From the NCBI GenBank assembly GCA_006384855.1, contig VCJN01002337.1, forward strand, positions 62,001-126,000: 64,000 nt of DNA, written 5' to 3'. Position numbers and translations under genes: made by a program. This document shows, in pieces, positions 14,877 to 47,500 of the stretch. The notes below the pieces were generated by a model, which ran no database searches, was not told where the DNA came from, and worked only from the letters and a program-made list of their open reading frames with translations. The number at the start of each line of letters is the position of its first letter. Within the stretch, counting starts at the first letter, position 1. The stretch comes from Tetraselmis striata (taxonomy: Eukaryota > Chlorophyta > Chlorodendrophyceae > Chlorodendrales > Chlorodendraceae).

Positions 14877-15350
14877 AAGCGAGACAAGGAGCCACGCCCA
14901 AGCAAGACGGACTCGCGGAGCGAGCCATGGTGAGCGCCGAGATCAAACACACTACAGAACGCAGAACAAGTTTGAATTTTGTAGTTGAAGAAGAAACGAA
15001 AATGTACCAGTCGTAGAAGACAATATAGTCGGGTGCCTTCCAACAACTCAAGGCGCCCCCGGTCCGCGGCCGCCCTTTATACTCGGTTAAAGGGCGCCGC
15101 CGGACCGGCGCCGGCCGGTACTGGCGTACCGGGCCGGCAGGGTCGTCACTTAACCCTGACGGCGCTGCGAAAACCAGGGTTTCCTAGGTCGTTCCTCTCA
15201 AGGAAACCCTACAGTTTTTTACGAGTACGTTAGCTACCCGTTACGATTACGAATCGAAAAGTTGGTCCTTCTTTTTTGCGAGAGGTCCCTAATAGCCCAG
15301 CCTGCCTGCCATCTTCCACTTTCGCTGTGTTGAACACAGTAGCGCAAAGT

Positions 15351-24155: not shown

Positions 24156-24544
24156 CGCAAGTTTCAAAGTTGAGTCTAGTTTTGCCAAAAAGGTCGCGCA
24201 GGCTGTTTTACACGGTCAAGAGCCGAAATTGGCAGGATGGTTTAGCGAAAGCGTGGAGGGAAAACGGAGTCAGGGGGGGCGCTGCGTGGAACGCAGCGAA
24301 AACTGGAAGATGGCAGGCTCAGCTGTTCTAGCTGCTTTTATATCTACTCTTGCTGCACCCAAAAAGGGCGCAACAACAGATGCCTAATTCCCGTACCACT
24401 GAGCAGGACTTGTAGCTAAAAGCGGTTAGGTCAAGGGAGGAAACCCCATAAACTAGTTTAGATCATTTCAAAGTTGAGTCTGGTTTTGCCAGTCTTGAGC
24501 GAACGGAGAGAGCGGTGGATTGACGGAGAAGAGGTAGCGCCAAG

Positions 24545-26131
24545 TCATGAAGGAGGCACTGGGAAGGCCACCGCTGCGGAGTCCTGTTGGACTTGGAAGT
24601 GGCGGAGGGGGGCGATGTGTCCAAAGAAGAACCACGCGCCAGGTGAAGGAAGAACGTTGGGGTCGATGTAGTCCAGAACGACGTCAGAGTTAGTGGCCCA
24701 ACCGCCTTGGTAGCGAATGTGGGACAATGGCACTCCGATGGCGTTCGCTGCAGAGGCTGCGCCCTTGCGAAGACTGTGTGAAGTCCAGGAAGTGCCAGCA
24801 GGGGGGGCAGGGTTGACTAGACTGATGGATGCAGACAGCCAGTCTGGCATTGTAGCCGCAGTCCAAGGTTTCGATTGCTCGGCCGCAGTGACAGCCCAGA
24901 AGTTTGATGTAGCCAAGCCAGCAGTAACCAGGGGGACAGATTGGACGTTGTCGATGAAGTGGTGCAAGAGACGTGCCACTCGAGGGTGCTCGGACACTGG
25001 AAGGAGAAGTACGCGTAGGTCGTCGGGTCCCCGTCGGCTAGCGCGACCCTTCTCGCGGTACACTTGCAAGGTGATGTTGTAGGTGTCGACATGCACATCT
25101 CGCACTCGACAGGAGACGCCAGTAAGGCCCCTGGCGAAGAGCATGAAGTTGACAACCGAGGCCAAGAGGGCTCGGAAGTCGAGGTGGTACTCTAGGTAAG
25201 GAGCAGACACAATTAGCTCGGCCTTTGTGACGAAGCGGTAGGCTACATCCGCAAGCAGAGGGACACGCAAAGGGGCAGCGTCTAGCCGGCGCTGACGCAG
25301 CATCAGGCCACGCCTTGCTGAAGTTAGGTGTAGACTGTCCTTGGCGATTTGGACGAGGTTGTGCAGTTCGAAGAACGTGTTGATTGCGGACAGGCATGGT
25401 TGCAGCGACTTAACTGCGATGTGCCCTCGCTCTCCGATCCAGGCAACATACCGAACGACAGTAGCAGTAGTCGCCTCCAGCGGGCTGATGTTCTCAGAGT
25501 CGTGGCAGAACTCCGCGAACTGAGACAGTCTGCCGGCGTAGCTCTTGAGTGTCTGAGCGCTGAGGGAGCTTGAGAGCAGGTCGAGCGTTCGCTGGCCCAA
25601 CTCGTCCGAGCCGAACGCCTCCTGCACCCGGGATCGCAGTGACGCAGCCCACGGGGCGACAGCTGCGGGCTCGTCAATTACGTACGTGCGTCGTTTTACC
25701 GACAGAGTTCCACCAGTACGACTACTGTTCGCAAAGTACTCGGCAGCAGCGGTTCGGTTTCCGGCGGTTAGCCGGTAGCTGCTGGACGGGTTTGCAGTAG
25801 CTTCAGTACGGGTTTGCGGGGCTAGGTTCAGGTAAGAGGGCCGCCCCGCGCGCCCTTCGCGCTCGTAGCGCATGTCTCGTGCATAACGTACACGCGCGAA
25901 ACTTGGTCGTTGCGAACTAGTTGTGACACGTAGTGTAACAACCAACGGACGCAGGGATGGGGTGGTAAGGAAGGCGGTTGGTTGAGCCGCCATGTGCAGG
26001 TGTGCGGATGGTTGAGCCGCACTCGGCTGTAGCTGTAAGAAGCGCCGCACCGAGGAAGGTCTAAATGAAGTCTGTAAGGTGGGGGGGGTCAGGTCCTGAC
26101 ACAAGGCGCTCATCTCGCCGTTGCGCTGCAA
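24545..26131 (-). CDS. Tyrosine recombinase of copy A
   Basis: The frame has 528 codons. The N-terminal third is basic and low in complexity. The middle has a core-binding-like region (LSAQTLKSYAGRLSQFAEFC, typical of the SAM-like domain of tyrosine recombinases). The catalytic part shows FARGLTGVSCRVRDV, the HxxR box HSLRKGAASAAN, GGWATNSDVV and a terminal LDYIDP that would provide the nucleophilic tyrosine. In DIRS-like elements such an enzyme integrates a circular DNA intermediate. Here it directly follows the Gag-like gene. The length fits the family. Confidence 0.88.
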   Translation of the reverse strand: MQRNGEMSALCQDLTPPTLQTSFRPSSVRRFLQLQPSAAQPSAHLHMAAQPTAFLTTPSLRPLVVTLRVTTSSQRPSFARVRYARDMRYEREGRAGRPSYLNLAPQTRTEATANPSSSYRLTAGNRTAAAEYFANSSRTGGTLSVKRRTYVIDEPAAVAPWAASLRSRVQEAFGSDELGQRTLDLLSSSLSAQTLKSYAGRLSQFAEFCHDSENISPLEATTATVVRYVAWIGERGHIAVKSLQPCLSAINTFFELHNLVQIAKDSLHLTSARRGLMLRQRRLDAAPLRVPLLADVAYRFVTKAELIVSAPYLEYHLDFRALLASVVNFMLFARGLTGVSCRVRDVHVDTYNITLQVYREKGRASRRGPDDLRVLLLPVSEHPRVARLLHHFIDNVQSVPLVTAGLATSNFWAVTAAEQSKPWTAATMPDWLSASISLVNPAPPAGTSWTSHSLRKGAASAANAIGVPLSHIRYQGGWATNSDVVLDYIDPNVLPSPGAWFFFGHIAPLRHFQVQQDSAAVAFPVPPS

Positions 26132-26207
26132 GGGTGCGACTTGCGGCGGTCACCGAAAGGTGGCCTCGCAAAGCTCCAGCAGCTCCGGCGAAAGGCGCCC
26201 TACACCG

Positions 26208-27116
26208 TCACTCGTGCTCACCTTCGCGGCCACGCCCACGCCCGCCGCCACGTCCTCGCCCACGCCCGCGACCTGCAGCTGCAACTGCTACTCGGGCAGT
26301 AGCGGTTGCCTTTGCGCTGATGGCAACGGTCGCCTCGAAGACACAACGCTCGTAGTCCTTCATGAGGTCCCCAAAAATCGCGGAACCCAGATGCTCCGAA
26401 GCAGGCTGAAAATGCTGGGCTCGCAGCACGTCCAGAACACCTTGGTCACCGTGCACACGCTTGATCTCATTTAGCCTCCGCAGGAAAGCCAGACGAAAAC
26501 GAAACGCCTTGTCGATGGCCTCGGCGTGATTCCGAGCTCTCGCGAGGTAGGGGGTGAAGTCCTCGTTAGCGGCAGGGACATAAGGTAGCAGCTCGTCGAG
26601 AGCTACGAAAAGTGCGGCCATGTGGGCCCCGAAACACGACATCCACAAATACTCCTCCTGGGCCAGTAGACGCCGGTCGTCCTGCTTGAGGTAGTCCTTC
26701 GTTAGGTCGGTGCTCAGGGGGAAGAGTCCAGGCACTCGGCTGACCGGTCGAACGGCCTCGTAACCAGACTCTGCTCTCTGCAGTAGCTCTGGCACCGCGA
26801 GGTAGTCGTCCTCGACACTCACGGATTTTGCTCCGACACGGCCGCTCTGGGCTAGCTCTAGCAAGTCGGGGCGCTCTGCGGCTCCCCCGCTGCCTGTCGG
26901 CTGTCCCGCGAAGCGCTGCCCGGAGCCGGAGCCATGTGCCCCTTCCCCACCAACAACGCGATCACGAGCCGTCAGTTGTGCCACAGCTGTAGCCAACTCT
27001 CGCAGTAATGAAGACTGGGCCCTCATATCTGCGTTCAGCGACTCCAACGTCGGCTCGGCGACGGGTTCTTCTCCATCTGGCATGGTAACGCACGGACGTA
27101 CGGACGAGAATATCAC
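26208..27116 (-). CDS. Gag-like protein of copy A
   Basis: The frame has 302 codons. It begins with a short acidic stretch and a heptad-like segment (LNADMRAQSSLLRELATAVA). A Gly/Ser-rich linker follows, then a globular helical part (LDELLPYVPAANEDFTPYLA, NHAEAIDKAFRFRLAFLRRL, ASEHLGSAIFGDLMKDYERC). The tail is rich in RG repeats (GRGRGRGGGRGRGRE) rather than a zinc knuckle. Its position before the recombinase and the RG tail suggest a nucleic-acid-binding structural protein; the Gag label is inference by analogy with DIRS elements. An internal start at PDGEEPVAEP (about residue 12) is equally possible. Confidence 0.65.
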   Translation of the reverse strand: MIFSSVRPCVTMPDGEEPVAEPTLESLNADMRAQSSLLRELATAVAQLTARDRVVGGEGAHGSGSGQRFAGQPTGSGGAAERPDLLELAQSGRVGAKSVSVEDDYLAVPELLQRAESGYEAVRPVSRVPGLFPLSTDLTKDYLKQDDRRLLAQEEYLWMSCFGAHMAALFVALDELLPYVPAANEDFTPYLARARNHAEAIDKAFRFRLAFLRRLNEIKRVHGDQGVLDVLRAQHFQPASEHLGSAIFGDLMKDYERCVFEATVAISAKATATARVAVAAAGRGRGRGRGGGRGRGREGEHE

Positions 27117-27260
27117 ACTCGGGTGGTGAGCCGGGTGTGGTCTTGAACAACCTGGGGTGACCTTGCTCGCAACGGGTTACGAGACAGTTTTTTACATCGC
27201 TGCGTGGAACGCAGCGAAAATTGGAAGATCTAAACGTGTTTATGGGGTTTCCTAACGGAC

Positions 27261-29111
27261 TATAGCTGTCCTAGTGCGACCCGTACGGTCTGTAGTGGTT
27301 TCGAGCCGTTACCATGCATCGGGTTTTGGTACGGGCTACCCCATCGCCCGGGAGCCCTGCGCTCCGGCCCGGGGAGCTACTTAGGACAGCCAGCCGCAGC
27401 TCGTCTGCCATCTTCCAGCTCGCTGCCTTCGGCAGCGCCTTCGCGTACTTGTGCGCGCGAGGGTCACTGAGGCTGAACAAGTCCGCACCGGGGTTCATCC
27501 ACCCGGTAGTGAGTCGTCGTGCCGCGCACATGCGTTACAACATCATGCAGCGACAGACAACCCCTCGGTAGTGTGGTTTTCCCTACTCGTGCGCCCGAGG
27601 TCGTTTTCCGTTTTTGCCCTGGCTTTGCAGCTGGGACGTTTTCGGATGGCGATGCGCACGGCAAGGAATTGGAGCTGGGGGGTCCCCGTTGGGGGGGTTT
27701 AAACCTCAACACCCGAAGTCGAGTCGCAGTACAGGCCTTCGGGGCTCCCGCAGTGGAGCGCCCTCTCGCAGTAGTCAACTCTTGAGGTTTAGGTGAGGTG
27801 GACGCGCTCGGCACCATGGCCGCTGCTCGTCACGGTTGTCAACGACAACAACTACGCCCACCGCAACAAATCGGCGCGGACGGAGGAGGACGTCCGTGTC
27901 GTCGGGGCGACCACTTGTTGTCCCGCAAGACACTGCAACCCAGTCCGCGTGTCCTCGCAGCAGGGCGCCGTGGCATCAACGGTCGTTACATGCTGTGGTT
28001 TTCCGGAACTACTCGCGTAATTGGCATGTTACATGGGTGGCGCCGCTCATGCGCCGGTGTTTTGAGAGGGCTCGTTGCCCTCGCCCCAATGAAGCTTCAG
28101 CAACGTTTGCTGTGGTCGCAGTGGGAGGCGTTTGTGCGGCCCGTGCCGATGCGTCTCCGACGTCTCCTACTCCAGCGTCTTCGTCACAAGGACCACGACA
28201 ACCTGCAGCTGCCCGCCGGGGGGCAGCTCTACCACCTGGCGTGCCTGGCGTCTCGTGGTGTACGTAACTACGCTTGGCCAACTATGGGTTGGGACTTGGG
28301 CGGCCGTCGATGGTGCAGCAGCAGCGGCCGCCTCGTCGTCACCCTCGCCCCGACATCATTGGCATCGTTACGGGCCGGCATTGGCTACAAGGGCCTCTAC
28401 GCCGGCCAACCCGCTTCCAACGTCACGGCAACACATCTGTGACAACACGAGCTGCCCGCCGGGGGACAGCTCCGCCACCTAACGCGACTTGTGCGTTTCG
28501 TGGCATCATCCTAAGCCTGCGCTTTGTGGGTTGGTCAGCAGCCGTCGCTGGTGCAGCAACGGCGGTCGGCTCACCGCTCTCCGCGAAGAAAGACCCACGG
28601 CGACAGCTAACCGAGTCGGCGGGTCTGCTGCGACGTCGCCGACAACCGACCCCGACACACATGAGCCGGTACGGCACGACCACACAGGGTCCCACAGGGT
28701 TCCGCCGCTCTTCGCGCAAGGGGGCGAAACAACCACCGCTGGTGATGACAACAGCAGTACATCGCTGTCATCGCGAGTTGTTGCGTGTCCACCCCTCGTA
28801 ACGTGCATCGCCAGTACAGGTACAGGGTACGAGTTACCATCGCGTCGGGTACAGTGCACCAGTACTTCACCTGACTGTACTCGGCGCGCTGGCGCGCTCG
28901 TGCGCGCAGATGTACTCGTCCTACTCGTGCCTGTGCCGCTGCTTTGCTGGGCGCTCGTCGCCAACTTGGGCTTTGCTACCCATGCTGCTTCTACTGGCCT
29001 GCAGTTCCGGCTCGTGCCGCACGCCACCATGGCGTGCAACCAATGCTATAGGGCGCCGTCGGGAGACGGCGCCTTAATTCCGCGACACGTCCGGCCTATG
29101 TCATGCCGGCG
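27261..29111. repeat. Diverged tandem repeat region between two elements
   Basis: Parts recur with a period of about 240 bp: AGCTGCCCGCCGGGGG.CAGCTC at about 28207 and 28450, and TGGGTTGG...GTGCAGCA at about 28286 and 28528. Short open frames on both strands (for example 27798-28442) lack recognisable motifs and change frame between repeats, so I call no gene. At about 27400, CTGCCATCTTCCAGC resembles a terminal motif of the recombinase elements. Confidence 0.5.
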
Positions 29112-29559
29112 TCAACATCTCCCGCCCGCGTCTGATGCGCCTGCGCCTCGATCGAGGTCCTCTTGGCGCGAGACCCCTCTACAACTCAAGACATCTTCCG
29201 TCTTCGTCTGGTCGGCACGCCTGCCGACTGCCCACGCTCGCAGTCGTAAACGAACCGCGTGTAAACTGGCAAAACCAGACTCGAAGTGCATACGAGTGCG
29301 AGCCCTGCACCGTACGTCGGACGTCGTCAAGCTGCTTCTCCAAATGGTCCTTGAAGTCCACCGCGTCCTCCCACGCAGCGGATGCGCTCCCAACCAACCG
29401 GATGGGCGTCTCCACGGCGCCGGGGCCAGCGTCGTCTGGGGCCATGTACCCCTGTGTGTGTGGGTGGATCGCTGTGAGTGCGAGTGTGAGTGTATGTGTG
29501 TGTGGGTGGGTGGGTGGGTATGGGTGCACGTGGCTGAGGAGGCAGCAAGAGGCGGGGGG

Positions 29560-32500
29560 GGGGGGGGGGGGGGGGAGACCTTCTTGTTGGGGTTGGGTTC
29601 CCGGTAGAGGCGATGCGCCTTCATGCGGTTGATCTCATGCGCGAAAAGGAGGTCCCTCATCATGGTCTCGCAGACATTCTTCGGCAGCACGCGCTTGGCG
29701 CCCGCCTTCAAGAAGCCCATGAGGTTCTCCATCCACAGCTCCGCAAGCGGGTGCCCGCAAGCCAACATCTGGTGGATCATGCGGCACACCGCCGAGTGCA
29801 AGTTGGAGACGAGGAGGGACACGAAGCCGTTTCCCTCAGCCAAGCGGACAGACACGGTGATGTCCGCTAGGTATCGAGTCCTCCCCTCCCTGCTGAGCGC
29901 GTCCACCTGCGCCTTGCGCTCCGGGCCGTCCTCCTCCGTCACCACGTTCTGCAACCCCCACCGCGTGATGAACCACACAGCTCCTCGCAAGCGCTTGTAC
30001 ATGTGCCCAAGCACCCCCAGCTGCGACACCGCACGCATCACCGCTGGGGACGCGAGCTCCTTCTCGGTCATGGTCGCCTTCACCCGGGCCTCCTCGAACA
30101 ACGGACCGGCGGTAAGAAGGGAAAACGATTCCGTGTGGAGCCAGCATTCCTCTATGACCCAGCCGGACTGCACCGTCACCTTGCCGGACCCTGCAGTCAT
30201 GAAGGGGAATGCCGTCACGCCCCCGCCCCCGCCCACGCCCACGCCCACGCCCATGGAGGGGGGGGGGGGGGGGGCTTCCCTTTCGACTTCTTGGACACCG
30301 CAAACGAAGGGCGCAACCCGCGTCCAAAGTTGCTGGGTATCATGACTAAAGCCTTGCGCCGGTCTTCCTGCTTCATAGCCCGAAATCCAACGTGGCCCAG
30401 CTCGTCGAGGAAGTTCCTCCAAAAGTCCTTTCCCAAGCCCAAAAAGCACAGGTGGTCCGGCGCGAGGGGGAAGAGGTTGACCATGCTGACATATATAGCC
30501 CAGGACCACAGGCACCTGGCACACGCCATGGCAGCCGGTGTTCTGCTTGGCCTGCTCCAGCCGGGTTGTGTTGAACGCACGCCGGGCAGCGGGGCTCACT
30601 TCGCCGTCCTCATCCCCATCGAGGTCCGACTTGGCCAAGTCCTCCTCTATCTGGCCGATGACGCCCATCTGCTCCAGCATCTGGTCGCCGGAGAGCAGGA
30701 GGCAGCTCGCGCCTGTGCGCACAGCCTGCAACTCTACGCCATCCACCTTCTGGAGGACGTCCTTTGCATACCCCGCAGGCGCCACCTTCATCGTGCCGTC
30801 CGGGCACTCCACACGGCTCACCAGACGGCACCAGGGGCAACCTCTGAGCTGGCTAGGCCCCCCCCCGCACAAAGATGTTTCGTCTGCCCTGGGCGTCGCA
30901 CACCCACATACCGAGGAAGACCTTGTGCACGAATTGCACCCCCCCCCCCCCCCCCCGTCGGCGGGGGTGACCCTCACTCCATGCTCGCCAAGCACCGCGA
31001 GCTCGTGCAACACCTCTAACAGTATTTTGCCCAGGTTGGGCGGCTCCGGGGGGCCAATGAGTGCGACTGGGTGCCAGTTGCTCCTGAAGGTCAGCATGTG
31101 GGGCGGCATGTCCTCACACCTGATCCCAACCTCGGTGACAGACTGGGTGGTCCGAAGGTGCGGCAGGAAGCCATCATCTGTGAGTGTGTAGATCCCGTTG
31201 TCGGCATGGAGGAAGTCTCCCGCGGTGAGGCCCGTGCCGTGCCCGCCTTCATTCAGGCGCTCCGCCTCCGACGAGGCGCGGAAGGCGTTGATAGACACGT
31301 CCGTCCCCTTCTTCCAACAAGCGTACCACACAGGGTCTCGGAACCAACCCTTGATGATGTCCGTCACGCTCAAGACGTACCAAACCCGTGCAGCCGTGAG
31401 CTTCAGGGACTGCGGTATGCGGATAAACCTGTCGGCATTGCACTCCGGGCAGTGCTGGTCGGGGAGGTTCGCCCATCCGCCAGCCTTCCCGGGCGCCCCG
31501 TTGAACGCCACGCACCCCTTGGGGCACATGTGCCGGACATATCTGGATGTATCACGCACCTGCATGCATCGGGAGGCGAGGAGCGTCAGGGGCATGACAC
31601 CCCAAGACGCGCCGCGTCAAGCACGCACCCAGGCACATCCCGGCCGTACCCGCAGGAACTTCCGCATCGCCTTGTGGCTGCGTGGCACGGCCATCCCACC
31701 CCAGGTGAAGCCGGCGGGCATGATGTCATGCAACAGCTGCCACTTGCTGTCAACGGAGTTGTTGGAATTCTTGCTCTTCACCTGGGCCGAGCACTTCATG
31801 ACTGCAAACGTGAGGGCATTCGTGTCGGACCCCGGCACAGCAGCAGACTCCCACGCCCGGAGGTGCGCCTCCTCCTCCTCCTCCTCCTCCTCCTCATCGC
31901 TCGTCCACCCGGCGCCAGCCGCGTCCCCCTCCCCCGCCCCCCCCCCCCTTCCCAACCCTCCTCTTCGGATTCACTAGACTGGTCATCGCCTTCAGAGACG
32001 GTTACCAAGCGAGCCTCCCCGCCCGCATCCACAGGGGGGTGCTCCTGAGCAGCCGCCATAGCCTCCACAACCTGCCACGCCGACCGGGCGGGTGCGTGTG
32101 ATTCCATACAACCGCAGGTGAGTGGTGCCACCAGCACACAAGCCGGGCCCACTCACCTATGAACGCAGAAGGTCCACAGTGTCACCGTCCTCGAAAACAG
32201 CGCGCCACTGGGTCGCCCCGCCGTAGTCCTCCAACACCCACTCGGTAACAACGCCGGTTATCACGCCGTAGTGCCATACTCCCCGGAACTTCTTGGCGAT
32301 GACCTTCATGTAGAAGTCACCGGGATCGCCTTCCCGTATCACGCCCTCATCGGCGGCTTCCACGCCCGCCGGCGGCCACGCAGGCGCGTCGATGTCCATA
32401 CCGTCTTCGCCAACGGGGTCCTCCCCCACGCCCATCACATCGTCCTCCTTCGAGCCGCCGTCGTCCGAGACCGGCGCCGACGGGCCGTTTCCGATGGCTG

Positions 32501-32879
32501 CAGCTACTCATGCTGCCGCCCCTACCGCTGCTGCTGCTGCTTGTAATAAGGCGGCCTTACGGCGCAACTTAGCCGCACGCTTCAACGAGTGGCTACAGTT
32601 CAGGTATTTTAGGAAGTGCCGATCTCGCGCCGTCTTATCACTACTGCCCGTCACGATGCCCTGGCAGTGCTTGCATGAGTACACGCCATCCTTCGACACA
32701 CTCGATATCCATCCCTTTCCCGGCATGCCTGCTGCCGCGCGCGCGGGGGGTGGGGGGGGGGGGGGGGGGGGGATGTAGCCCACCACCGGCAGGCAGCACA
32801 GATGCGAGTGCGCGGCTGTCCGCGCTTTATTCAGCGGTGAGCGGCGGTGACCGTGAGGCGACCCGTACTTCATGCGCAT
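29560..32879 (-). CDS. TNP2-type CACTA transposase with BED-like finger and Tudor-like segment
   Basis: Exons in order: 32879-32508, the BED-like finger (YSCKHCQGIVTG, DRHFLKYLNCSH) and an alanine-rich linker; 32438-32157, a Tudor-like segment (KVIAKKFRGVWHYGVITGVV, WRAVFEDGDTVDLLRSE); 32150-31970, an acidic linker (SEGDDQSSESEEE); 31900-31620, EEEEEEEEEAHLRAW and SKWQLLHDIMPAGFTWGG; and 31595-29600, the core. The core opens with MCPKGCVAFNG and DQHCPECNADRF, the cysteine pattern at the start of TNP2 transposases, then GWFRDPVWYACWKKG. Later segments include VTVQSGWVIEECW, WFITRWGLQNVV and ADITVSVRLAEGNGFVSLLV. G-runs at 29550 and 30250 and a C-run at 30940 sit in or next to introns. I inferred the joins by comparison with the first copy. 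The end near 29560 is uncertain. Confidence 0.72.
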
Positions 32880-33351
32880 GCTGGGGCGTTACACAATCAA
32901 CAGCAGTTAGGGCGGCTGCATTAAAACGCGCACCTACGAACACCACCTACCGCCTACCACCTAAGCTACCGGACCACTTACATCCGCCCACACCTCCGCC
33001 CGTCGTGCCGCACATCGCCGCACACAACGTGCCGCACATCGCCGCACACAACGTGCCGCACATCGCGCGCACATACGTCGTGGGGGCGTGCGCGCGGTAC
33101 TGCACCGATACATCGTACTACTACTCCGCGCTGCGACTATGCAAATTAGCGTCAATACACCGGGCTAATGTCGGGTGTATATCGCCGCTTATCTTTATGT
33201 TCACGCACACCTAGCGACGGCAGCATTTGCCCACTCCGCGATATGTATATCGCGCAGCAGCGCCGCGACGGTACGTACGCGCGACGCTGCCTGCTTCGCA
33301 AGGATATCCATCACACGAGGCGATGAAGTGTCACCAGTTGCACCACCCACC

Positions 33352-34179
33352 ATGGCACTATCGATGACACCCCAGAAAAGGGCCAGGATGGTGGAGCGCT
33401 GTACACGAACCCAACTAGCATACGCGAGCGTGGAGGAGAACACGCTACAAAATAGACTCACCGACGAGGACAGAAGAGGGGAATACATCCATCTCCCCGG
33501 CGGCTGGACTCCCACCAAGTCCAGCAACCCAGCCCTCTACCGCTCCCTGCGCCACGCTTGGCGCTGGCACACGTTGCTGGATGTCGGCGCGGGCGCGCTC
33601 GCATAGTACAAGCTCTTCCTGCTTGACCAGCCCGATCTGGACGGGGACATCGTCGACGCTGATACGCGTCTCACATACCTCCACGGTTCGGATTCGGTGT
33701 GGCTGCAAGGCGCCGAGGATATGCTCGAGATCGCTGCGAAGCAGGCCACTGTACTCGTCGAGAACGATGACGACGGGGCTATGGAGCCTTTCCTCGCTGG
33801 GGCCCACGGAGAGCAGTTCCCGCTGTTCCAACTCATGCGGCTGACCGCGCGCGTGGTGCAAGAAGCCCTCACCCACACATGGATTCAGACGGACAGATTC
33901 AGCCGGTTCCTGTCCGACATCACAAAGGAAGCCCACAAGTGGGAGACAGACAGAGCGGCAATCCCCGGGAGCACGCACCACGTCGGGTCTTTCCTCCCCT
34001 ATGCCCCTTTGACGTGGACCGCGACTTCCCCGCCAAGGCTTGCGCACATGGAACCCATTCATAAGTGGCGCGAGGGGTATTTCCCAACGGTAAGCCCGGG
34101 GAGGCGCAGTATCCTCACAGCTTCCAGGGAACACTTGGCGCGGCTTCCAACTGTGGCAGACCTCACGAAGGTGCCCTAG
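33352..34179 (+). pseudogene. Divergent ORF of unknown function inside CACTA copy 2
   Basis: The ATG at 33352 (context CACCATGGC) opens a frame running to 34179 with one in-frame TAG at 33604-33606: 84 codons before it and 191 after. The sequence on both sides looks like one protein: RRGEYIHLPGGWTPTKSSNP before, and LDQPDLDGDIVDADTRLTYL, AEDMLEIAAKQATVLVENDD, FPLFQLMRLTARVVQEALTH and FLSDITKEAHKWETD after. It is transcribed away from the transposase and lies in the segment the first copy lacks. No family is recognised. It could be a second transposon gene, a captured gene, or a gene whose TAG lies in an unrecognised intron. A long minus-strand frame over the same bases is less protein-like. 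Confidence 0.45.
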
Positions 34180-34867
34180 CCGCCCCCCTAAAGTCTAAAT
34201 CTCAAATGTGTAGAAAATTAGACAGGAGCAGTTTTGTGGTGGGCACCGCCCACAACGGCGAAGTGATGCCCCGCCAGTGTAATAAAAGCATCCACTGGCC
34301 CAGCGCCTCCGCGACACCGGCCCACACCTCCGCCGCGACTGCCGCGCAAGCCCTGATCGCATGCCGGCAGCCTGCGATCATGATTTGCCAGGCACTCCTA
34401 GCACCCTGCCGGCACATGCATGCTGTGCCGCAACGCTACGCGCGAACTAAGCACCATTGCTGTGCGGGCACGCACGGGCTTCGCGAGAGTCGGCCGCCGC
34501 ACCGTGCCAGTACTTATCGTGAATACTCCTTGGCAGGGGCCGGGGACGCGGCCCGCCAGCGTGGCGCACCGCGACGCCAGCGACCCCGTGTTGTGCAGCG
34601 ATGTGCGGCGATGTGCAGCGAGTACGTGCAGCCGCATGTACTTAGCCCGGGTGCTCCGCGTCGGCGGGCGACACGCGAGCCCCCGTGCGCATATCAATTT
34701 GATGAAATTATGGAAACGAGAAATTCATATAGTACTTTACAGGTCGCGCGCGATAGTCGTCGCTACTCGGTATGAAATCCACGTCCCTCGTCCGTCCCGT
34801 ATCGTCCCCGTATGTCGTCGTTCGTCACCAGTAGAGCACACTTACGTCACATCTGAATCTCACAGTG

Positions 34868-35747
34868 ATGCGAGCAAGAAGTTGTTGTGAGAGCTGCCAG
34901 CGTCAGCGCATGCCGACATCGCGGAGCTACTGCACTACTTTGATGCAGCCCGATAGGTGTTCGCCGGCGGGCGCGTGCCAGCGGCACGATGGGCCATCAG
35001 CCAGCGCGAGGGCAAGCAAAATGGACGGCAGATACTGTTATACTCCATTTTCCCTTTAGCCATAATGTTTTGCTATGCTAGCAGGTATATATTATTCCCT
35101 GCTAACATGGCACATGCAGACAACGTTCTTGGCGGGGTCGCGGCCGCGCGTGCGGCACGTGATGGTGCTCCTGCGCCTGCGTCGCGTCGCTCGTCGGCAT
35201 GTGTTGCTATGACCCGGGTCATTGGCTGCAAGCGTCCTCGCCGCGGTTGATAGCCTACCCCGGGGCGGGGGTCCCTTACTATTTGGCAGCTATTTGGCAG
35301 CTAAATAAGCGACTTCGTGGTTCCCTTGGCTCCTTCTTGGTTCTTGGCTCCCTGTCCTCCTGCTCGACCTTGGTTTCAGGCTTATGTCTCTCTTTTGCTG
35401 GCAACCTTTCGTAGTTGCTGTTAGTTCTGTTTGTAGTGCGCATTTGTGATGAAAGCCCCGATGTAATAATAATAATAACTATAATTCCCCGCTACAGTAG
35501 AACCGGTACGACTACGCATCCGCGGAGTCGTTGTATATATTAGCATTGCGGGTATAAATACTAGTAGTATAAGGCCGACGACTTTTCTGGAATTCTCTAT
35601 AGTTCTCTGACTCAAGCCTTACGTGGCTAAGTAACACAGCACGGGTATCCCACGACACCCGGCTAACATAGCACAGGTACGACTGACCTCGACGGATATA
35701 AATACCGCCGGCAAGTCTAGTAGGTAGAATTCAGAGACAGACGACGA
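34868..35747. other. Gene-poor stretch between CACTA copy 2 and the Harbinger-like element
   Basis: The first 170 bases have weak coding character on the plus strand (SAHADIAELLHYFDAAR-like), perhaps debris of the element into which the CACTA inserted. The rest shows only short AT-richer segments and no gene. Confidence 0.4.
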
Positions 35748-35750
35748 TAA

Positions 35751-36520
35751 GGCCAGTGAGATTTAATTGTCGGTTTTAGGGTCCTTTTCTGGCCGAAATC
35801 GGAGGGGGGGGGGATTTATTCAGTATCCCCCCGATAATTGTGTAGCCAGTACATTGGCAGTACTTCCCCAACCGTACTGCAACCGGGCTAAATATTGTAA
35901 ATTTGTATGTTAATGGTTACATGGCCAACTGTTGTCGTGCGCACACTCAGACAGAGAAGTGTGGGTATGTACGCGCCGCCACCTCCATGCCGCTGCAACC
36001 CTGAGCAGGAAACACCATTACACTAACCTGTGCCAGTTCCTAGCGCCGGAGGTAGGGTCCGTAAGCGGCCGCGTCGTCGAGCTAGTACCAAATGCGCGCT
36101 GGCAAGCAACGCCAACTGCACTGTGAAAGTGGCCGTTACCTCGGATGGCAGGCTACTCGGTGGGCAGGCAGCGCTGCATGTCTTTGACGAGCACTGGCTA
36201 CAAGCACACACTTGCTCTGAGCTGATGCGGCATGTGGCGAAGGACATAGACCCGGAGCTGTCCTTTGATCTCGTGGAGCAAGTGACGATGGTGTGCGTGG
36301 AGCACGAGGACATAGTCACCGGCTCGGGGCGAAAGCGACGGCGGCACTCAGCCATCCCTAAACTGAACACACAGGCGCTTGCAACGCAGTTTGCGGGCTG
36401 GCAGTACGGTGCACAGTACTTTAAAATATAATATTACCCAGCTACAGAATTTCTGGAGGGGGGGGGGGCAAATCGGAGGGGGGGGGGGGACCTAAAACCG
36501 ACAATTAAATCTCACTGGCC
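35751..36520. mobile_element. PIF/Harbinger-like element of 770 bp
   Basis: The left end starts GGCCAGTGAGATTTAATTGT and the right end is its exact reverse complement; the inverted repeat is about 30 bp. TAA flanks both sides (35748-35750 and 36521-36523). A 3-bp TAA duplication and GGCC-starting termini fit the PIF/Harbinger superfamily. G-runs lie just inside both ends. No DDE transposase is visible, so it is non-autonomous. Confidence 0.85.
36030..36431 (+). CDS. ORF inside the Harbinger-like element
   Basis: The open frame covers about 133 codons to a stop at 36431, with no ATG near its left end, so it is at best a partial exon. It reads as ordinary protein: a basic start (RVRKRPRRRAS), NANCTVKVAVTSDGRLLGGQ, LRHVAKD-type helix (CSELMRHVAKDIDPELSFDL), VTMVCVEHEDIV, a nuclear-localisation-like GRKRRRHS, and FAGWQYGAQYF near the end. 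I do not recognise it. It may be the remains of the element's DNA-binding protein or a captured exon. Confidence 0.4.
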   Translation: MPVPSAGGRVRKRPRRRASTKCALASNANCTVKVAVTSDGRLLGGQAALHVFDEHWLQAHTCSELMRHVAKDIDPELSFDLVEQVTMVCVEHEDIVTGSGRKRRRHSAIPKLNTQALATQFAGWQYGAQYFKI

Positions 36521-36639
36521 TAACCCAGGAACCCCTGTAACCAGAAGAGATTGGCCATACTTTCTAAATCCTTACGCAGCATCCAACAGGGCCTGAAGAA
36601 CAGGCTTAAGACACCCTAACAGACACCCTCACCAGTTGG

Positions 36640-36670
36640 CTGCAACTGGTGCTGACTACATCCGTGCAAG

Positions 36671-36705
<35 letters not shown>

Positions 36706-36945
36706 CGGGTTTTGCGTGGACGTCCCTCTCTCTCCGGAAGGGGGGCACTACAACCGCGTACGTGATCGACGTGAAGATGGAGAAGATACATCGGCGGCTG
36801 GGCAATGGAGTCCAGCATACTACTCGACTACATCGACCCAACAGTGCTGCCGTGGTCGGCAACATGGCACCTCTTTGGCAAGAAAGTGGTCAACCAGCCA
36901 TGTTGCCGCGCCAAGTGGCGACATAATGGCAAAACTGTGAGCCCC
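36640..36945 (+). pseudogene. Tyrosine-recombinase C-terminal fragment, retroelement fossil
   Basis: The stretch contains the recombinase box WTSLSLRKGG, RRLGN and, close by, DYIDPTVLPWSATWHLFGK. These correspond to the C-terminal catalytic part of the enzymes at 24.5 and 37.4 kb but are clearly diverged from them. It is a short broken piece preceded by a long C-run (about 36674-36704). It is older than copies A and B. Confidence 0.7.
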
Positions 36946-37392
36946 CTGCTTTGTTTGCTAATCATATTGATAATTATAGAGGTTTGAATTACACGGGCAA
37001 ATATTCGACGGGTGTTTCCCGACGTTACAAATTCCGCCGCACGCGGCTAGGACGCTAGTGCCGTGTGCCCACGTCCATTCCTCACCCCCATATGACGCCC
37101 TGCGACGTAGCGGAGTCTCCACCTTTGCGCCAGCTTCCAGCTAGCGCAACCCACCCTTCCCGACCCTTTCTTGCGTGATATGGGGCGCGAGCCCCTGTGC
37201 CAAACTTTGTAAGAGACCTAACAACTTTTTGGCATGACTGCGAGCCCCCTGCCTCGCTCATTCGGCGGGTCGTCGTGTGCGCGTACGCGAGAAGTCCCGG
37301 TTTCAAAGTTGAGTCTGGTTTTGCCAAAAAGGTCGCGCAGGCTGTTTTACACGGTCAAGAGCCGAAATTGACGGAGAAGGGGTAGCGCCAAG

Positions 37393-39018
37393 TCATGAAG
37401 GAGGCACTGGGAAGGCCACCGCTGCGGAGTCCTGTTGGACTTGGAAGTGGCGGAGGGGGGCGATGTGTCCAAAGAAGAACCACGCGCCAGGAGAAGGAAG
37501 AACGTTGGGGTCGATGTAGTCCAGAACGACATCAGAGTTAGTGGCCCAACCGCCCTGGTAGCGGATGTGGGACAGTGGCGCTCCAATGGCGTTTGCTGCA
37601 GAGGCTGCGCCCTTGCGTAGACTGTGTGAAGTCCAGGAAGTGCCAGCAGGGGGGGCAGCGTTGACTAGGTTGACTGCTGTAGACAACCAGTCTGACATCG
37701 TAGTAGCAGTCCAAGGTTTCGACTGCTCAGCCACATTGACAGCCCAGAAGTTGGAGGTAGCCAAGCCAACAGTAACCAGGGGGACAGACTGGACGTTGTC
37801 GATGAAGTAGCGCAAGAGACGTGCCACTCGAGGGTGCTCGGACACTGGAAGGAGAAGTACGCGCAGGTCGTCAGGTCCCCGCCGGCCGGCGCGACCCTTC
37901 TCGCGGTAGATCTGCAAGGTGATGTTGTAGGTGTCGACATGCACATCTTGCACTCGACAGGAGACGCCAGTAAGGCCCCTGGCAAAGAACAGGAAGTTGA
38001 CAACCGAGGCCAAGAGGGCTCGGTAGTCGAGGTGGGACTCTGGGTAAGGAGCAGACACAATTAGCTCGGCCTTTGAGACGAAGCGGTAAGCTACATCCGC
38101 AGGCAGAGGGACACGCAAAGGGGCAGCGTCCAGTCGACGCTGACGTAACATTAACCCACGTCTTGCCGAAGTGAGGTGTAGGCTGTCCTTGGCGATCGGG
38201 ACGAGGTTGTGCAGCTCGAAGAAGGTGATGATGGCAGACAGATAGGGCTGTAGAGACTTAGCTGCGATATGCCCTCGCTCCCCGATCCAGGCAACGTACC
38301 GAACAACAGTAGCAGTAGTCGCCTCTAGCGGGCTGATGTTCTCGGAGTCGTGGCAGAACTCAGCGAACTGAGCCAACCTGCCGGCGTAGCTCTTGAGGGT
38401 CTGAGCGCTGAGGGAGCTGGAGAGCAAGTCGAGCGTCCGCTGGCCTAGCTCGTCTGAGCCGAACGCGTCCTGTAGTCGGGATCGCAGTGACGCAGCCCAC
38501 GGAGCGACAGCTGCGGGCTCGTCGATTACGTAAGTGCGTCGTTTTACTGACAGAGTGCCACCGGCACGGCTACTGTTCGCAAAGTACTCGGCAGCAGCGG
38601 TTAGGTTCCCGGCGGTTGGCCGGTAGTTGCTGGACGGGTTTGCAGTAGCTTCAGTACGGGTTTGCGGGGCTAGGTTCAGGTAGGCGGGCCGCCCCGCGCG
38701 CCCTTCGCGCTCATAGCGCCTGTCCCGTGCGTAACGTACACGCGCGAAACTTGGTCGTTGCGAACCGGTTGTAACTCGTAGTGTAACAACCGACGAACGC
38801 AGAGATGGGGTTGTAAGAAAGGCGGATGGTTGAGCCGCCATGTGCAGGTGTGCGGAGGGTTGAGCCGCACTCGGCTGTAGCTGTAAGAAGCGCCGCACCG
38901 AGGAAGGTCTAAATGAAGTCTGTAAGGTGGGGGGGTCAGGTCCTGACACAGGGCGCTCATCCCGCCGTTGAGCTGCAAGGGTGCGTCTTGCGGCGGTCAC
39001 CGAAAGGTGGCCTCGCAA
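37393..39018 (-). CDS. Tyrosine recombinase of copy B
   Basis: The frame has 541 codons and is collinear with the enzyme of copy A. It shares the SAM-like region (LKSYAGRLAQFAEFC), the arginine region FARGLTGVSCRVQDV, the HSLRKGAASAANAIG box, GGWATNSDVV and the terminal LDYIDP tyrosine. Differences from copy A are mostly single substitutions, many in the low-complexity N terminus and near TAVNLVNAAPP. Conserved catalytic positions in two independent copies suggest the enzyme was under selection until recently. The start is uncertain; MQLNGG-like sequence downstream does not give an in-frame alternative. Confidence 0.87.
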   Translation of the reverse strand: MRGHLSVTAARRTLAAQRRDERPVSGPDPPTLQTSFRPSSVRRFLQLQPSAAQPSAHLHMAAQPSAFLTTPSLRSSVVTLRVTTGSQRPSFARVRYARDRRYEREGRAGRPAYLNLAPQTRTEATANPSSNYRPTAGNLTAAAEYFANSSRAGGTLSVKRRTYVIDEPAAVAPWAASLRSRLQDAFGSDELGQRTLDLLSSSLSAQTLKSYAGRLAQFAEFCHDSENISPLEATTATVVRYVAWIGERGHIAAKSLQPYLSAIITFFELHNLVPIAKDSLHLTSARRGLMLRQRRLDAAPLRVPLPADVAYRFVSKAELIVSAPYPESHLDYRALLASVVNFLFFARGLTGVSCRVQDVHVDTYNITLQIYREKGRAGRRGPDDLRVLLLPVSEHPRVARLLRYFIDNVQSVPLVTVGLATSNFWAVNVAEQSKPWTATTMSDWLSTAVNLVNAAPPAGTSWTSHSLRKGAASAANAIGAPLSHIRYQGGWATNSDVVLDYIDPNVLPSPGAWFFFGHIAPLRHFQVQQDSAAVAFPVPPS

Positions 39019-39054
39019 GGCTCCTGCAGCTCCGACGAACGGCGCCCCACACCG

Positions 39055-39963
39055 TCACTCGTGCTCACCTTCGCGGCCACGTCCACGTCCGCCGCCACGT
39101 CCTCGCCCACGCCCGCGACCTGCAGCTGCAGCCGCCACTCGAGAAGTAGCGGTCGCCTTGGCGCTGCTGGCGACGGTCGCCTCGAAGACACGCCGCTCGT
39201 AGTCCCGCATGAGGTCCCCAAAGATCGCGGAACCCAGATGCTCTGAAGCAGGCTGAAAATGCTGGGCTCGCAACACATCCAGAACACCTTGGTCACCGTG
39301 CACACGCTTGATCTCATTGAGCTTCCGCAGGAAGGCCAGACGAAACCGAAACGCCTTGTCGATGGCCTCGGCGTGGTTCCGGGCTCTCGCGAGGTAGGGG
39401 GTGAAGTCCTGGTTAGTGGCGGGGACGTAAGGTAGCAGCTCGTCGAGCGCCACGAAAAGGGCGGCCATGTGGGCCCCGAAACACGACATCCACAAGTACT
39501 CCTCCTGGGCCGGCAGACGCCGGTCATCCTGCTTGAGGTACTCGTTCGTTAGGTCGGTGCTCAAAGGGAAAAGTCCAGGCACTCGGCTGACCGGTCGAAC
39601 GGCCTCGTAACCAGACTCTGCTCTCTGCAGTAACTCTGGCACCGCGAGGTAATCATCCTCGGCACTCACGGATTTTGCTCCGACACGGCCGCTCTGGGCT
39701 AGCTCTAGCAAGTCGGGGCGCTCTGCGGCTCCCCCGCTGCCTGTCGGCTGTCTCGCGAAGCGCTGCCCTGAGCCGGAGCCATGTGCCCCTTCTCCATCAA
39801 CAACGCGATCACGAGCCGTCAATTGTGCCACAGCTGTAGCCAGCTCTCGCAGTAATGAAGACTGGGCCCTCATATCTGCGTTTAGCGACTGCAACGTCGG
39901 CTCAGCGACGGGTTCTTCTCCATCTGACATAGTAACGCACGGACGTACGGACGAGAATATCAC
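39055..39963 (-). CDS. Gag-like protein of copy B
   Basis: The frame has 302 codons, the same length as in copy A and very similar throughout. It has the same helical core (LDELLPYVPATNQDFTPYLA, FLRKLNEIKRVHGDQGVLDV) and RG-rich tail. Equal length with substitutions but no length change supports a functional reading frame in both. Role and family assignment are as inferred for copy A. Confidence 0.65.
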   Translation of the reverse strand: MIFSSVRPCVTMSDGEEPVAEPTLQSLNADMRAQSSLLRELATAVAQLTARDRVVDGEGAHGSGSGQRFARQPTGSGGAAERPDLLELAQSGRVGAKSVSAEDDYLAVPELLQRAESGYEAVRPVSRVPGLFPLSTDLTNEYLKQDDRRLPAQEEYLWMSCFGAHMAALFVALDELLPYVPATNQDFTPYLARARNHAEAIDKAFRFRLAFLRKLNEIKRVHGDQGVLDVLRAQHFQPASEHLGSAIFGDLMRDYERRVFEATVASSAKATATSRVAAAAAGRGRGRGRGGGRGRGREGEHE

Positions 39964-40226
39964 ACTCGGATGGCGAGCCGGGTGTGGTCTTGAACAACCT
40001 GGGGTGACCTTGCTCGCAACGGGTTACGAGACAGTTTTTACATCGCTGCGTGGAACGCAGCGAAAACTGGAAGATGGCAGGCTCAGCTGTTCTGGCTGCT
40101 TTTATGTCTACTCGTGCTGCACCCAACAAGGGCGCAACAACAGTTACTAGTTCCCGTACCACTGCGCAGCACTTGTAGCTGAAAAGCGGTTAGGTCAAGG
40201 ATGGAAACCCCATAAACTAGTTTAGA

Positions 40227-40440
40227 TCAGACATCGGCCGAATCCGCCCCAGCACTTGACATCTTGCGCCAACTGCAGTCGTAGGGTTGGCACAGCCCGT
40301 AGACCACTGCCTCATTCGAACCCTGAAGGGCTAATGGGCATCAACCGGGTAACCTCAGGACACGCCGGGACGATATTGCCGAAATAGCGCGACAACATGG
40401 ACCAGGAGTCGATCCCGGGGTGAACTTTACTTTTACCTAT
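40227..40440 (-). repeat. SINE-like repeat fragment
   Basis: It matches the repeats at 50.8 and 51.7 kb (CCAGCACTTGACATCTTGCG, then CCTCATTCGAACCC and a B-box-like GGAGTCGATCCCGGG). It starts where copy B ends and lacks the A-box side of the tRNA-like head. Confidence 0.65.
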
Positions 40441-41942: not shown

Positions 41943-42984
41943 ATGAGACGTGCGATGGTCGGAGCTGGGCGCTCTTCGGGTTGCGCGCCAGCCAGTGTGT
42001 ATGCCCAGCTTCTGGTGCTCCTGCTTCTGGGGCCAATCTGCAAGGCTCAACAGGAGTCGCCCCACAGGCTTGCCAATTCCCGCGCCGCCGCTGGTGTACT
42101 ACAATCGAGTGCCGAAGGCAGGAAGCTCGACCGTGTTGGGCCTTATTGCCTCACTGCAAAAGCAAAACGGCTTCACTCACGTCCACAAGTTGCAAGATTT
42201 CTATTGGGATCGGCCTGGCCCCGCAGCCAACGAGCAGGCGGTCGCAGAGCTATTTAACACTGCACGTGCGGCAGGCGAGCCTGCTGCATACGATTGCCAC
42301 ACCTACTTCATCGATTTCTTCGGCTCCCCGGCTGTGCGAGCGCGCCTCGGCGGTGACGTCTCTGACGTGCACTTTATCAACGTGCTCCGCAACCCGTCGC
42401 AGCGCATGCGGTCACTATTCTACTATGCAGTGGACCCTGTTGCAAGGGGCGGTGAGAGGGCTGAGCAGATTCAGCGGCGACGGCGCGCGGATCCATGTGG
42501 GTGCGGAGACATCTCATACAACGAATGCATAGAGCAGGCGCACACCACCAACTGCAGCGCTGGCACAAACATCGCAACGCGCGGCAGGTCGGCTGTACGG
42601 CACTTCCTGACCGCGGAGGACTCCGCAGCATATCACAAGACAGAGTGCACTGTAGAAGCCCGGGCGCCGCTGGTGCTAAAGGCGATGGCAAACATGCAGT
42701 TGTACACTGTCATTGGGCTCGCCGAGCGTATGGACGATACGGTGAAGCTGCTCGAAGCCCGCCTGCCGGCAGTGTTTCGCGGTGCGTCACACCGCCTGGC
42801 CATGCGAGGGAGAGACAGAGTGACAACTGTGCCTTTCAAATTCAGCACCCAAGGCCCACTTGTCAGCTCAAAAGCTGATGCCATCCTCCGGGCCAACCCG
42901 TGCAACATGGGCGAGTATGCAATATGGGAGCATGCAAAGCGCCTGTTCCACAATGCCACCGGGGTGGATGTGCGGGGGCTGTAA
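41943..42984 (+). CDS. Carbohydrate 2-O-sulfotransferase-like protein
   Basis: The catalytic frame (about 42080-42984) reads PLVYYNRVPKAGSSTVLGL, the 5'-phosphosulfate-binding loop of the HS2ST/uronyl sulfotransferase family (PF03567). It then has FINVLRNPSQRMRSLFYYAV, the 3'-phosphate-binding motif with conserved Arg and Ser, and RAPLVLKAMANMQLYTVIGL, EARLPAVFRG and a C-terminal CNMGEYAIWEHAKRLF. Such enzymes move sulfate from PAPS to hexuronic acids in the Golgi lumen. A signal-anchor-like stretch (VYAQLLVLLLLGPICKA) starts at the ATG at 41943 but lies in another frame than the catalytic part. An unrecognised intron, a sequencing indel or a real frameshift must lie near 42050-42080. The stop is at 42982-42984 and TGTAA follows at 43123. 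Confidence 0.8.
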
Positions 42985-44583: not shown

Positions 44584-47500
44584 TCACACCCCCTGCCAGT
44601 GTTCTCGCAGGGCATGCACGAGCAGTTCATATGATGTGAATATCCCGCCGTGTACCGCCTCCATATTGTTGTCGGTGCAGAACTTCACTTCCCCAAGTTG
44701 AAAGCTCTCTGCCTCGGCGAAGTCCGTGTCTTCCATGGATTTTCCTCTGACTGGGTTGACAGCACGTAGCATAACTGGCTTGCAGTGCCGGTGTTGTTCA
44801 GAACGAGGGAGGACGGACTATACCGGAGTATGTGGACCGGTACCCGGATTAGGCTGCCGTCGTCCTCGTAAGGAGGCGGGCGTAAAAATGCTTGCATACA
44901 TCGATGACTGCCTATTGGCTGACGAGAAGGCCAAAAGAGCGCGCGCAAGGCTGGGCGGCTTCATGGACTACATGCTATAATTTGCCCTTGGGTGAGGAGT
45001 GAGCATGGACAAAGCCCAACCTCTACCGCTCAACAACGGCACGTTCATAGGGCTTGATATCGACCTGACAGCATCCACATTGAAATTCCCCGCAGCCCGC
45101 ATGGATGCGATCACCAACAACATTTGTGCAGTGTTGCGAGCATGCCGAATAACCCCGAGAGATATATCTCAAGCAACATGCAGGGTGCTCAGCTGCTCGC
45201 ACCTTTATTTTACAGGGAGCTTATATGGCAGACCTTTATATGGCAGACCTCCGCGGCCGGGCGGGCCTGGACGAATCATACGGCCTCCCGCCCACACGCA
45301 TTCCATGTCATGACAGCGCTGTGGCTAACTGTGCCGCGCCTTAAGGACGAGCTAGAGGAAGCGGTTTTGCGTACCGGCGAGACGCGGCCTGCAAGCAGGC
45401 AATAGAGGACATGATGTCCGAGATGGCAGTGGTAGCCTCGAAGGCATAGCAGGTAGTCAAGACAGATGAACTGCTCCTTGGCCGCGTCCGGGCACGCGCA
45501 GAGCATCAACAGGTTAAGGCCTCAGTAGTCACGCATGCCGTTCACCATGCATGGTCGTTCGAATGCAGCCACCATGACATGGTCGTTCAGCATCACGGCA
45601 AGCGTGTGGCCGTCTGCCTAGTCACCATGAAGAACGGCATTGTACAGTTGCGCATTTTATGCGATGATTGAAAAGCAGCCAAGAAGCGTGATGTCTATCA
45701 CACTGAGGACTATCAATTGCAGTGCGTGAACAACAAAGCTGACCTCCGGTTGGCTGCCGGTAGTGGACGCGGTGGTGGCCGCCGCGGTGGTTTTAGTGGT
45801 GGCCGCGGCGGCGCCGTCACCCGGGGGTGTTGGAATTGTGGCAAACCGGGCCACATGTACATCGAGTGTGACCAACCCCTTGGCGTTGAGAATCCCCTCT
45901 GCGACCGCTTGACACGCAACGCTCAAGATCGTTCCCGCCGTGTAGCCTATGGTCAGAAACGCTGTTTGATGATGGACGTTGCCACCGGTCTCTCGCGGGT
46001 AGCGAAGGGCGGCAGCACTCACATTGGGCAGGCAGCGGCTGCTGTTAAGCAGCCAACCATCCAAAGCATGCAACAGCCCATTGAGACCCTGACGGCTACC
46101 CTTGCCGCTGTGAGCGCCAACTCGCAGAACAGCGGTGGCAGTGCGTCCTTCGTACAACACATGCCTGATCCGTTTTTGGCAGGTGCCAACAGTGATGGCG
46201 ACGACCAAGGTGAGATGGCGCTGGCTAGCGCTGTCGCCGTTGAATCCATGGAGCAAAGCGGCCCGGGGCTGCAGGATGTCTTGGCGTCCCTTCACCACAC
46301 ATTCCAGTAGCTGCCAACCAACGCCGCCGGCGCGGCGGCGGCGGCGCTAGCCAACGCCCCCGTGGGCGCCCCAAAAAGGTCAACGCTGCCAAGCCACTGC
46401 AGCGCATGCATGAGCAACATTGGGATCAGGTGCGAGAGCACCTGCCTCACAAGCCACTTGGCTGTGAGCCAGCCCTACAGCAGGAGCAACCCTCTTTCTA
46501 CGGCGGACAACAGCCGCTCATGATGACAACAGGGCACCTAGGCCTGCGCATGCAGCAGATGCATCAGCATTTGCCGACAGCCTTGCAGCACGCTAATTCC
46601 CCCCGCGTCCCGGTGTCGGCGTTGTCCGACTTGTCTCCGGATCAGGCGCAATGGTGGAATCAGGCTCGTGAAGCAGCGCTGAATGGCAAACTGGATGTAC
46701 GCAGCCCAGAGTCAGTCGCTTGGGATGCATCGCTGCAGCATGCATTGCAGCGCTTCCGCGCCTGACTGCGCCTTACATGGACAGACTTTAGCCAGTTGGC
46801 CACGCCGTTGATATGGCAGTCAACCGTCAAGAGTGTGTTTGGCGTGACGCTGCAGCGGGTGTCAGCACCAGCCCTTGCTGTTGAGTTGCCGACGCCAGTT
46901 GAGCCCATACATCGGGTGGTGAGCAGCAGCGCGCCCATGGCAATCAGCCGCAAGCGCTTTGATGCTGGCATCATGGACACCATTGCGAAGCTGGAAGCCT
47001 AGAGTTATATGCCTCTGGCACATAGACCGAATCTGCCAGATAGCGACCCGTACCTGCAAGCTATCAGGCAGTCTCAGTGGGTGCACTGGGGCGCCAACCC
47101 GGCGCAGTGGCGCCCCGGGGCATGTCACCTGGATAGTGCGAGAACCGCCATCCCCGAAGTGGGGGGGGGGGGGGGGGGGGGGGGGGAGGTCGTGCTCAAC
47201 ACCTTGCTGGGCACTAGCGCCGACTTCTCGGGCATTCACGCTCGTGTATTTTGCTCAAGTAGCTTCAAGCGGCGCATGCGAGGCTCGCGGTAGCACCCAT
47301 GACCATGAATGGCATTGGCGGTCCTATGCAGACACAGCGTGCCAACGGGCGTGTCCGAATCGCCATCAAACCCAACATCAATTGGAAGTCGAGCCTTCAG
47401 TGGCCTTACATGTGCATCTGTACAGACCCGGCCATGCCGGAGTTTCTGGTGGACACGTTCACGATGGACGCCTTCCACATTCACTTCCCATCAACGGATG

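Follow-up and report, generated by a model that had tools for sequence, protein, structure and literature searches.

The window analysed here, 64,000 nucleotides of the Tetraselmis striata genome (positions 62001–126000 of contig VCJN01002337.1, C1884 in our numbering), holds two copies, A and B, of a mobile element that encodes a Gag-like protein and a tyrosine recombinase (YR) and has no reverse transcriptase (RT) between the two genes. We believe that it is probably a PAT-like element without RT, which makes its own Gag and Gag-YR proteins, has its RNA copied by an RT supplied in trans, and is inserted as a circle by its own YR. The evidence that carries this reading is the split repeats, the Gag-UGA-YR arrangement in a single frame, selection on both open reading frames (ORFs), insertion without target-site duplication at two empty sites, a high copy number, and the presence of RT-bearing relatives in the same genome (224 Mb in 2903 contigs were searched).

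On the minus strand, each of the two window copies consists of a Gag-like frame followed by a YR frame, with no RT between, as an earlier note on this DNA had described from the sequence. The frame pairs are where that note placed them, but its count of 302 Gag-like codons starts at a GTG, with an ATG first reached at codon 12, and its picture of separate frames of “528/541 codons” arises in part from an extra C in copy A. In copy B, YR is in phase with gag past the UGA; in copy A a run of eight C in place of seven puts YR out of phase. Copy A is moreover damaged at its 5′ end, where the A1 repeat is reduced to its last 33 bp, and copy B is without the B1-A2 part of its tail. The suggestion that A and B separated only recently does not hold: they are ~93% identical at the DNA level, with synonymous divergences (dS) of 0.19 in gag and 0.24 in YR, and fall into two separate subfamilies, each with further copies.

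The missing RT is a feature of the family, as the earlier note had supposed. A search with the DNA of copy A listed 41 rows at 40 places, one of which is the window copy itself, and all 40 cross the gag-YR junction in one unbroken piece; 38 extend over the whole query or nearly so (~2.53–2.57 kb), and the other two (on C464 and C2385) are partial and still cross the junction. These places, like the loci read below, were the best matches and do not sample the genome at random. RT stood at the junction in no copy examined. The YR ends 1043–1067 bp downstream of gag in 34 of the 38 gag stretches read, a count made with no filter for alignments spanning gag to YR and in which the overlap of loci L036 and L037 enters a few gag stretches twice; three of the other four leave the locus and one (L046) is broken. 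With the Gag of copy B as query, 130 of 130 scored matches extend over the full 302 residues at 98–100% identity, and 129 of them have no stop. A pattern for the internal B1-A2 junction gave 477 forward and 477 reverse matches genome-wide, with 0 for the control; such equal numbers are odd, and 477 is the safe figure. Listed RT of the type found at locus L061 (150 listed) and listed RT of a second group, family N (92 listed), both described below, occur within 5 kb of none of the 130 listed Gag matches. The counts of RT neighbors here and below draw on 150 YR matches, at least 151 RT matches (150 used), the 92 family N RT matches and the 130 Gag matches.

There is no third long frame besides gag and YR on the sense strand between the repeats of the window copies, and the element is too short to hold genes for RNase H or a methyltransferase as well; a Pfam scan of both ORFs gave no methyltransferase, a class to which Pfam is possibly insensitive. 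The viral contigs searched with both proteins held no relative, and a search with PF00589 returned seven matches, the Gag-YR family not among them.

Both proteins are under purifying selection. Between A and B, gag has a ratio of nonsynonymous to synonymous divergence (dN/dS) of 0.131 and YR one of 0.151. Neither value is near 1, and RT was absent from the junction of every copy examined; neither outcome that the earlier note had named as a refutation was seen. Between L004 and B, dN/dS is 0.077 for gag; the YR value for this pair (0.374) is distorted by an indel in L004, and we did not use it. A set of 33 copies, 31 of them distinct, was assembled from loci in which a single alignment spans gag to YR, and is for this reason kept apart from the evidence on the missing RT. 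Both frames are retained in 16 of the 31, a proportion biased upwards because the loci are the best matches and not a random sample; the other 15 have stops, frameshifts or an unclear end.

In Pfam the YR matches integrase N-terminal domains of the SAM-like type (E 7e-6 to 2e-7) and, below the cut-off, Phage_integrase; it also matches Cre chains weakly (best E 0.004). Across four aligned sequences, including those from L060 and L061, the residues R, HxxR, W and Y, which we take to be the catalytic ones, are invariant. The 302-codon product matched no Pfam family, and we call it Gag-like by inference from its position, the layout of the element and its Arg-Gly-rich tail.

Among the 31 distinct copies, the intact ones have gag-phase stops only at codons 302 and 856 (15 copies) or 302 and 850 (one copy). 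A recoding of UGA was considered and rejected, as intact copies hold a single inner UGA, at codon 302. All 27 copies that could be parsed have TGA-CGG at the end of gag, the other four of the 31 being without the exact anchors used for parsing. Between the UGA and the C-run, L004 differs from B by five synonymous changes and one nonsynonymous change. A hairpin is predicted 6 nt past the UGA, with an energy of −68 kcal/mol and a z of −3.36 (0/200 shuffles as stable); two other variants of it give z −2.94 (2/200) and z −4.22 (0/200). Folding energy is what speaks for this hairpin, which we treat as a model. A type II readthrough signal is described as UGA followed by CGG or CUA, with a stem-loop 6–12 nt downstream (PMC11166343). 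Gag-UGA-CGG-YR in one frame, together with the predicted hairpin, looks like such an arrangement, from which readthrough itself may be surmised.

Full copies are ~3.22 kb long and run A1 (186–187 bp), gag, YR, B1, A2, a short spacer and B2, which is the order of split direct repeats. The B1-A2-B2 tail is complete in 21 of the 28 elements outside arrays and lacks a part in seven (L031, L043, L045, two in L046, L048, and window copy B). Flanking sequence varies from copy to copy. Two empty sites, known because the targets are themselves repeats, document insertion without target-site duplication: at L035, where the target is another copy's A1, and at L041, where it is the end of a family N element, the joined flanks give the exact target. 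The element begins with TGATC and ends with GAAA, and of 22 ends, 9 have a right flank that opens with TG and 13 one that opens with T; with these termini, the core of insertion is likely a short match, A/TG. For DIRS1-like elements the published model (PMC3266345) likewise has insertion at a 3-bp match with no duplication.

The differences that separate the subfamilies are present in both A repeats of an element; one L047 copy has a private substitution common to A1 and A2, and L032 has a private extra A common to both, within an A-run where independent change is easy. The pattern leans, on thin evidence, to one repeat having been copied from the other at transposition. Head-to-tail tandem arrays of the element with a period of 2916 occur at L036, L037 and L039 (contigs C2249 and C348). 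Two further arrangements may be recorded. At L046 (2132–5704) two copies adjoin in opposite orientation, the second broken right after gag, and at 15304–15408 of the window (plus strand) a 28-bp match to the end of A stands with a 32-bp match to the start of B2, perhaps a decayed solo A-B2 remnant.

Possible sources of RT are present in the genome. At L060 and L061, RT-like sequence (frameshifted) lies upstream of a YR that is 38–40% identical to that of our element over 374–380 residues. With the RT piece of L061 as query, 63 of 150 listed divergent YR relatives have a listed RT 0.5–4 kb upstream on the same strand, and 0/150 have one downstream. L062, the tail of the L061 element, carries a B1-A2-B2 of its own and has short motifs in common with the Gag-YR element: TGGCAAAAC in B, the A2 start TGATC, and GCCATCTTCCAG. 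The window itself contains a relic, its YR frame broken by a shift, whose YR piece matches at least 150 scored relatives, L060 and L061 among them, and which is by its sequence a remnant of an RT-bearing PAT-like relative. A relic of an RT end also lies ~0.5 kb past the right end of the L040 copy, outside the element.

Family N (L051–L055, L058, L059) is a second group with RT: its members have a Gag with what we presume to be a zinc knuckle, an RT frame of 696 codons (580 in L052) and a YR, with A repeats of 200 bp, B repeats of 68 bp and a length of ~5.9 kb by coordinates. The labels zinc knuckle and RNase H are our own assumption, Pfam giving only RVT_1 in the RT frame of the window. Its Gag does not match the Gag-like protein of the element, the part of its YR covered gave no tblastn match with P0001 or P0003, and its ends compare with the Gag-YR ends at chance (126/200 shuffles as good locally, 139/200 globally). 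The RT frame at 1097–2683 of the window (minus strand), considered as partner or parent, is a piece of family N and probably not the parent. It belongs to a family N piece at 421–2781 (minus strand) in which the RT frame is broken near 1100 and 31-nt inverted repeats, 90% complementary, stand at the bounds; sequence very similar to its flank recurs near 34840, and the piece may sit inside another repeat. At 44861–45148 (plus strand) the window shows weak similarity to RT (25% over 96 residues, E 9e-5 against P0005).

From these observations we infer a cycle in which RT is supplied in trans and in which particles and circles are formed. The element RNA would be translated into Gag plus some Gag-YR, by UGA-CGG readthrough aided by the downstream hairpin; Gag and Gag-YR would package that RNA; RT from an RT-bearing element would copy it in trans; the ends would be rebuilt out of the internal B1-A2 junction during copying, giving a circle; and YR would insert the circle at a short match with core A/TG. 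The element would thus borrow RT only, the particle protein and the recombinase being its own. The earlier note had offered as one choice a DIRS-like family that lost RT and spreads with that of a relative; the split direct repeats, the insertion without duplication and the RT-bearing relatives agree with this. The data can be explained without its other choice, a new kind of recombinase element.

Several results weigh against this cycle. The Gag-like profile matches PDB chains through the Arg-Gly-rich tail only, and the fold prediction proposed earlier for the 302-residue protein gave a poor model, with a mean predicted local distance difference test score of 42; a capsid role would be read from context. 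The stretch from UGA to the C-run gives weaker ratios of synonymous to nonsynonymous changes in other comparisons with B (5:4 for window copy A, 6:4 for L007). Over the 40 pairs of the hairpin in 16 sequences there are zero two-sided changes, and pairing and covariation are no better than in column shuffles (238/500 and 147/500); the 16 are those of 18 distinct segments that remain when L039 (insertion) and the second L046 copy (broken) are set aside. Of 19 elements, only three (L006, L032 and one L047) have in their own A2 the closest match to A1 among the A2 repeats of all elements, and unshared private changes in A1 or A2 are frequent. The tandem arrays are no proof of circles, and are not used as such, since a 2916-bp period also results when A1 and A2 cross over unequally. 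The ends of the element resemble those of L062 only locally (5/300 shuffles as good), an end-free global alignment being at chance (185/300). Finally, no RT-bearing element with near-identical ends or with a homologous Gag was found, the Gag of the L060/L061 relatives lying outside the comparison.

For the translation step alone, YR might instead be made from its own internal start, the first ATG past the UGA, or by splicing. An in-frame ATG does lie ~60 codons into the YR frame, ahead of the SAM-like domain, and the hairpin is without covariation. We nevertheless consider this unlikely: the stretch ahead of that ATG is in gag phase and looks coding by its 5:1 ratio in L004, and UGA-CGG with a predicted hairpin 6 nt downstream fits the type II signal described above.

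The main rival to RT in trans is a route through DNA only, in which a YR transposon is excised as a circle and reinserted, its copies multiplying by rolling circle or because excision takes place while the DNA replicates, and the Gag-like protein has another function, for example DNA or RNA binding. The absence of RT, the retained catalytic residues of YR, the tandem arrays of period 2916 and the weak homogeneity of A1 and A2 would all suit it, and YR DNA elements are likewise expected to insert without duplication. On the other side, the element keeps split direct repeats, which are described as a hallmark of RT-bearing YR elements (PMC4157794); one private substitution is common to A1 and A2, the YR is 38–40% identical to the YRs of RT-bearing elements, and the copy number is high. 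We accordingly regard the DNA-only route as improbable. That the family is a dead by-product, a DIRS element from which a single internal deletion took RT and whose copies spread passively, would fit the 15 of 31 distinct copies with damaged or unclear frames and is very hard to reconcile with dN/dS of 0.13 and 0.15 between two subfamilies at dS 0.19–0.24, with both frames kept in 16 of 31 (mostly chosen by best Gag match), and with 130 listed Gag matches at 98–100% identity.

A more far-reaching version can be put forward tentatively, and we hold it to be possible though doubtful: a long-lived split retrotransposon, with its own readthrough Gag-YR pair, that has given up RT for good and recruits to its particles the RT that other families make (or is copied without RT). 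Particle, copying enzyme and integrating enzyme would then no longer be encoded together.

Enzyme-borrowing elements usually lose most of their genes. TR-GAG and other Gag-only plant long terminal repeat (LTR) retrotransposons encode Gag and borrow RT and integrase; the element resembles them in encoding Gag and, on our reading, borrowing RT, but they are LTR elements that borrow integrase too, whereas a recombinase of its own is present here. Toc1 of Chlamydomonas is an incomplete element. With the PAT-like elements (DIRS order; PAT, Toc, Kangaroo), as described in PMC4157794, the Gag-YR element shares split direct repeats A1/B1-A2-B2, YR and insertion without target-site duplication, and Toc Gag is there described without a zinc finger, which the Gag-like protein likewise lacks. 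It differs from them in having no RT, and no RNase H or methyltransferase that we could find, its only genes being the Gag-like one and YR, which share a phase on either side of a UGA. On our reading it operates as PAT-like retrotransposons do, but we class it as a non-autonomous relative of that group and not as a full member, because RT-RNaseH and, as far as Pfam shows, methyltransferase are absent; the relatedness is measured as YR identity to L060 and L061, with B1-A2-B2 seen in L062. Ngaro elements have YR and the same repeat order (PMC6681497) but retain RT. Crypton DNA transposons also have YR without RT, but consist of the YR domain only according to PMC4157794, while the present element adds split direct repeats, a Gag-like gene and a YR like that of RT-bearing elements. 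SIRE, the short version of VIPER, is also a shortened YR retrotransposon; it is two ends with ~30 bp between (PMC6681497), without two conserved genes. We recognized no Gag-YR element without RT in the literature, judged by titles and the openings of abstracts, with most subscription papers outside the search.

In two subfamilies with hundreds of copies, selection retained Gag and YR while RT was not kept. With this element one can test which proteins must act in cis in YR retrotransposons and if sharing of RT alone is possible, and the UGA-CGG-hairpin readthrough, if true, would be a way to set the ratio of Gag to recombinase.

Features of the Gag-YR copies and of the RT-bearing relic in the window (window coordinates).
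Feature	Position	Strand	Remark
Copy B, A1 start to B2 end	37301..40229	minus	2929 bp; B1-A2 tail part gone
A1 repeat of copy B	40043..40229	minus	
Gag-like frame of copy B	39055..39963	minus	302 codons, terminal TGA; Arg-Gly-rich C-terminus
UGA then CGG, copy B	39055..39057	minus	candidate readthrough site
Predicted stem-loop of copy B	38950..39048	minus	starts 6 nt past UGA; energy prediction without covariation support
YR frame of copy B	37393..39054 (listed ORF 37393–39018)	minus	in gag phase after UGA; SAM-like domain and R, HxxR, W, Y
B2 repeat of copy B	37301..37370	minus	right end of copy B
Copy A	24162..27229	minus	inverted A1 piece at 27227–27252
Gag-like frame of copy A	26208..27116	minus	
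Stem-loop region of copy A	26103..26201	minus	placed by alignment; the folded sequence comes from a different copy in this subfamily
YR frame of copy A	24545..26131	minus	off gag phase through C8 run
B1 repeat of copy A	24466..24491	minus	
A2 repeat of copy A	24280..24465	minus	
B2 repeat of copy A	24162..24231	minus	right end of copy A
Relic of RT-bearing relative	36639..37252	plus	YR end 36639–36879 and tail 36888–37252; tail 84.8% identical to L062

Some other features of the window may be listed. The first 8 kb have a GC (guanine plus cytosine) content of 69% and are probably a repetitive stretch; at 4355–7937 long frames are open on both strands and in several phases, and the two that were scanned had no Pfam match. 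A 15-nt match recurs four times between 10589 and 11710 at a spacing of ~368–371 bases, which suggests a tandem array. Runs of ~20 or more C or G occur in several places (e.g., 23690, 40640 and 36690). A frame at 41950–42984 (plus strand) is sulfotransferase-like, at 21.4 bits against a Pfam cut-off of 22.

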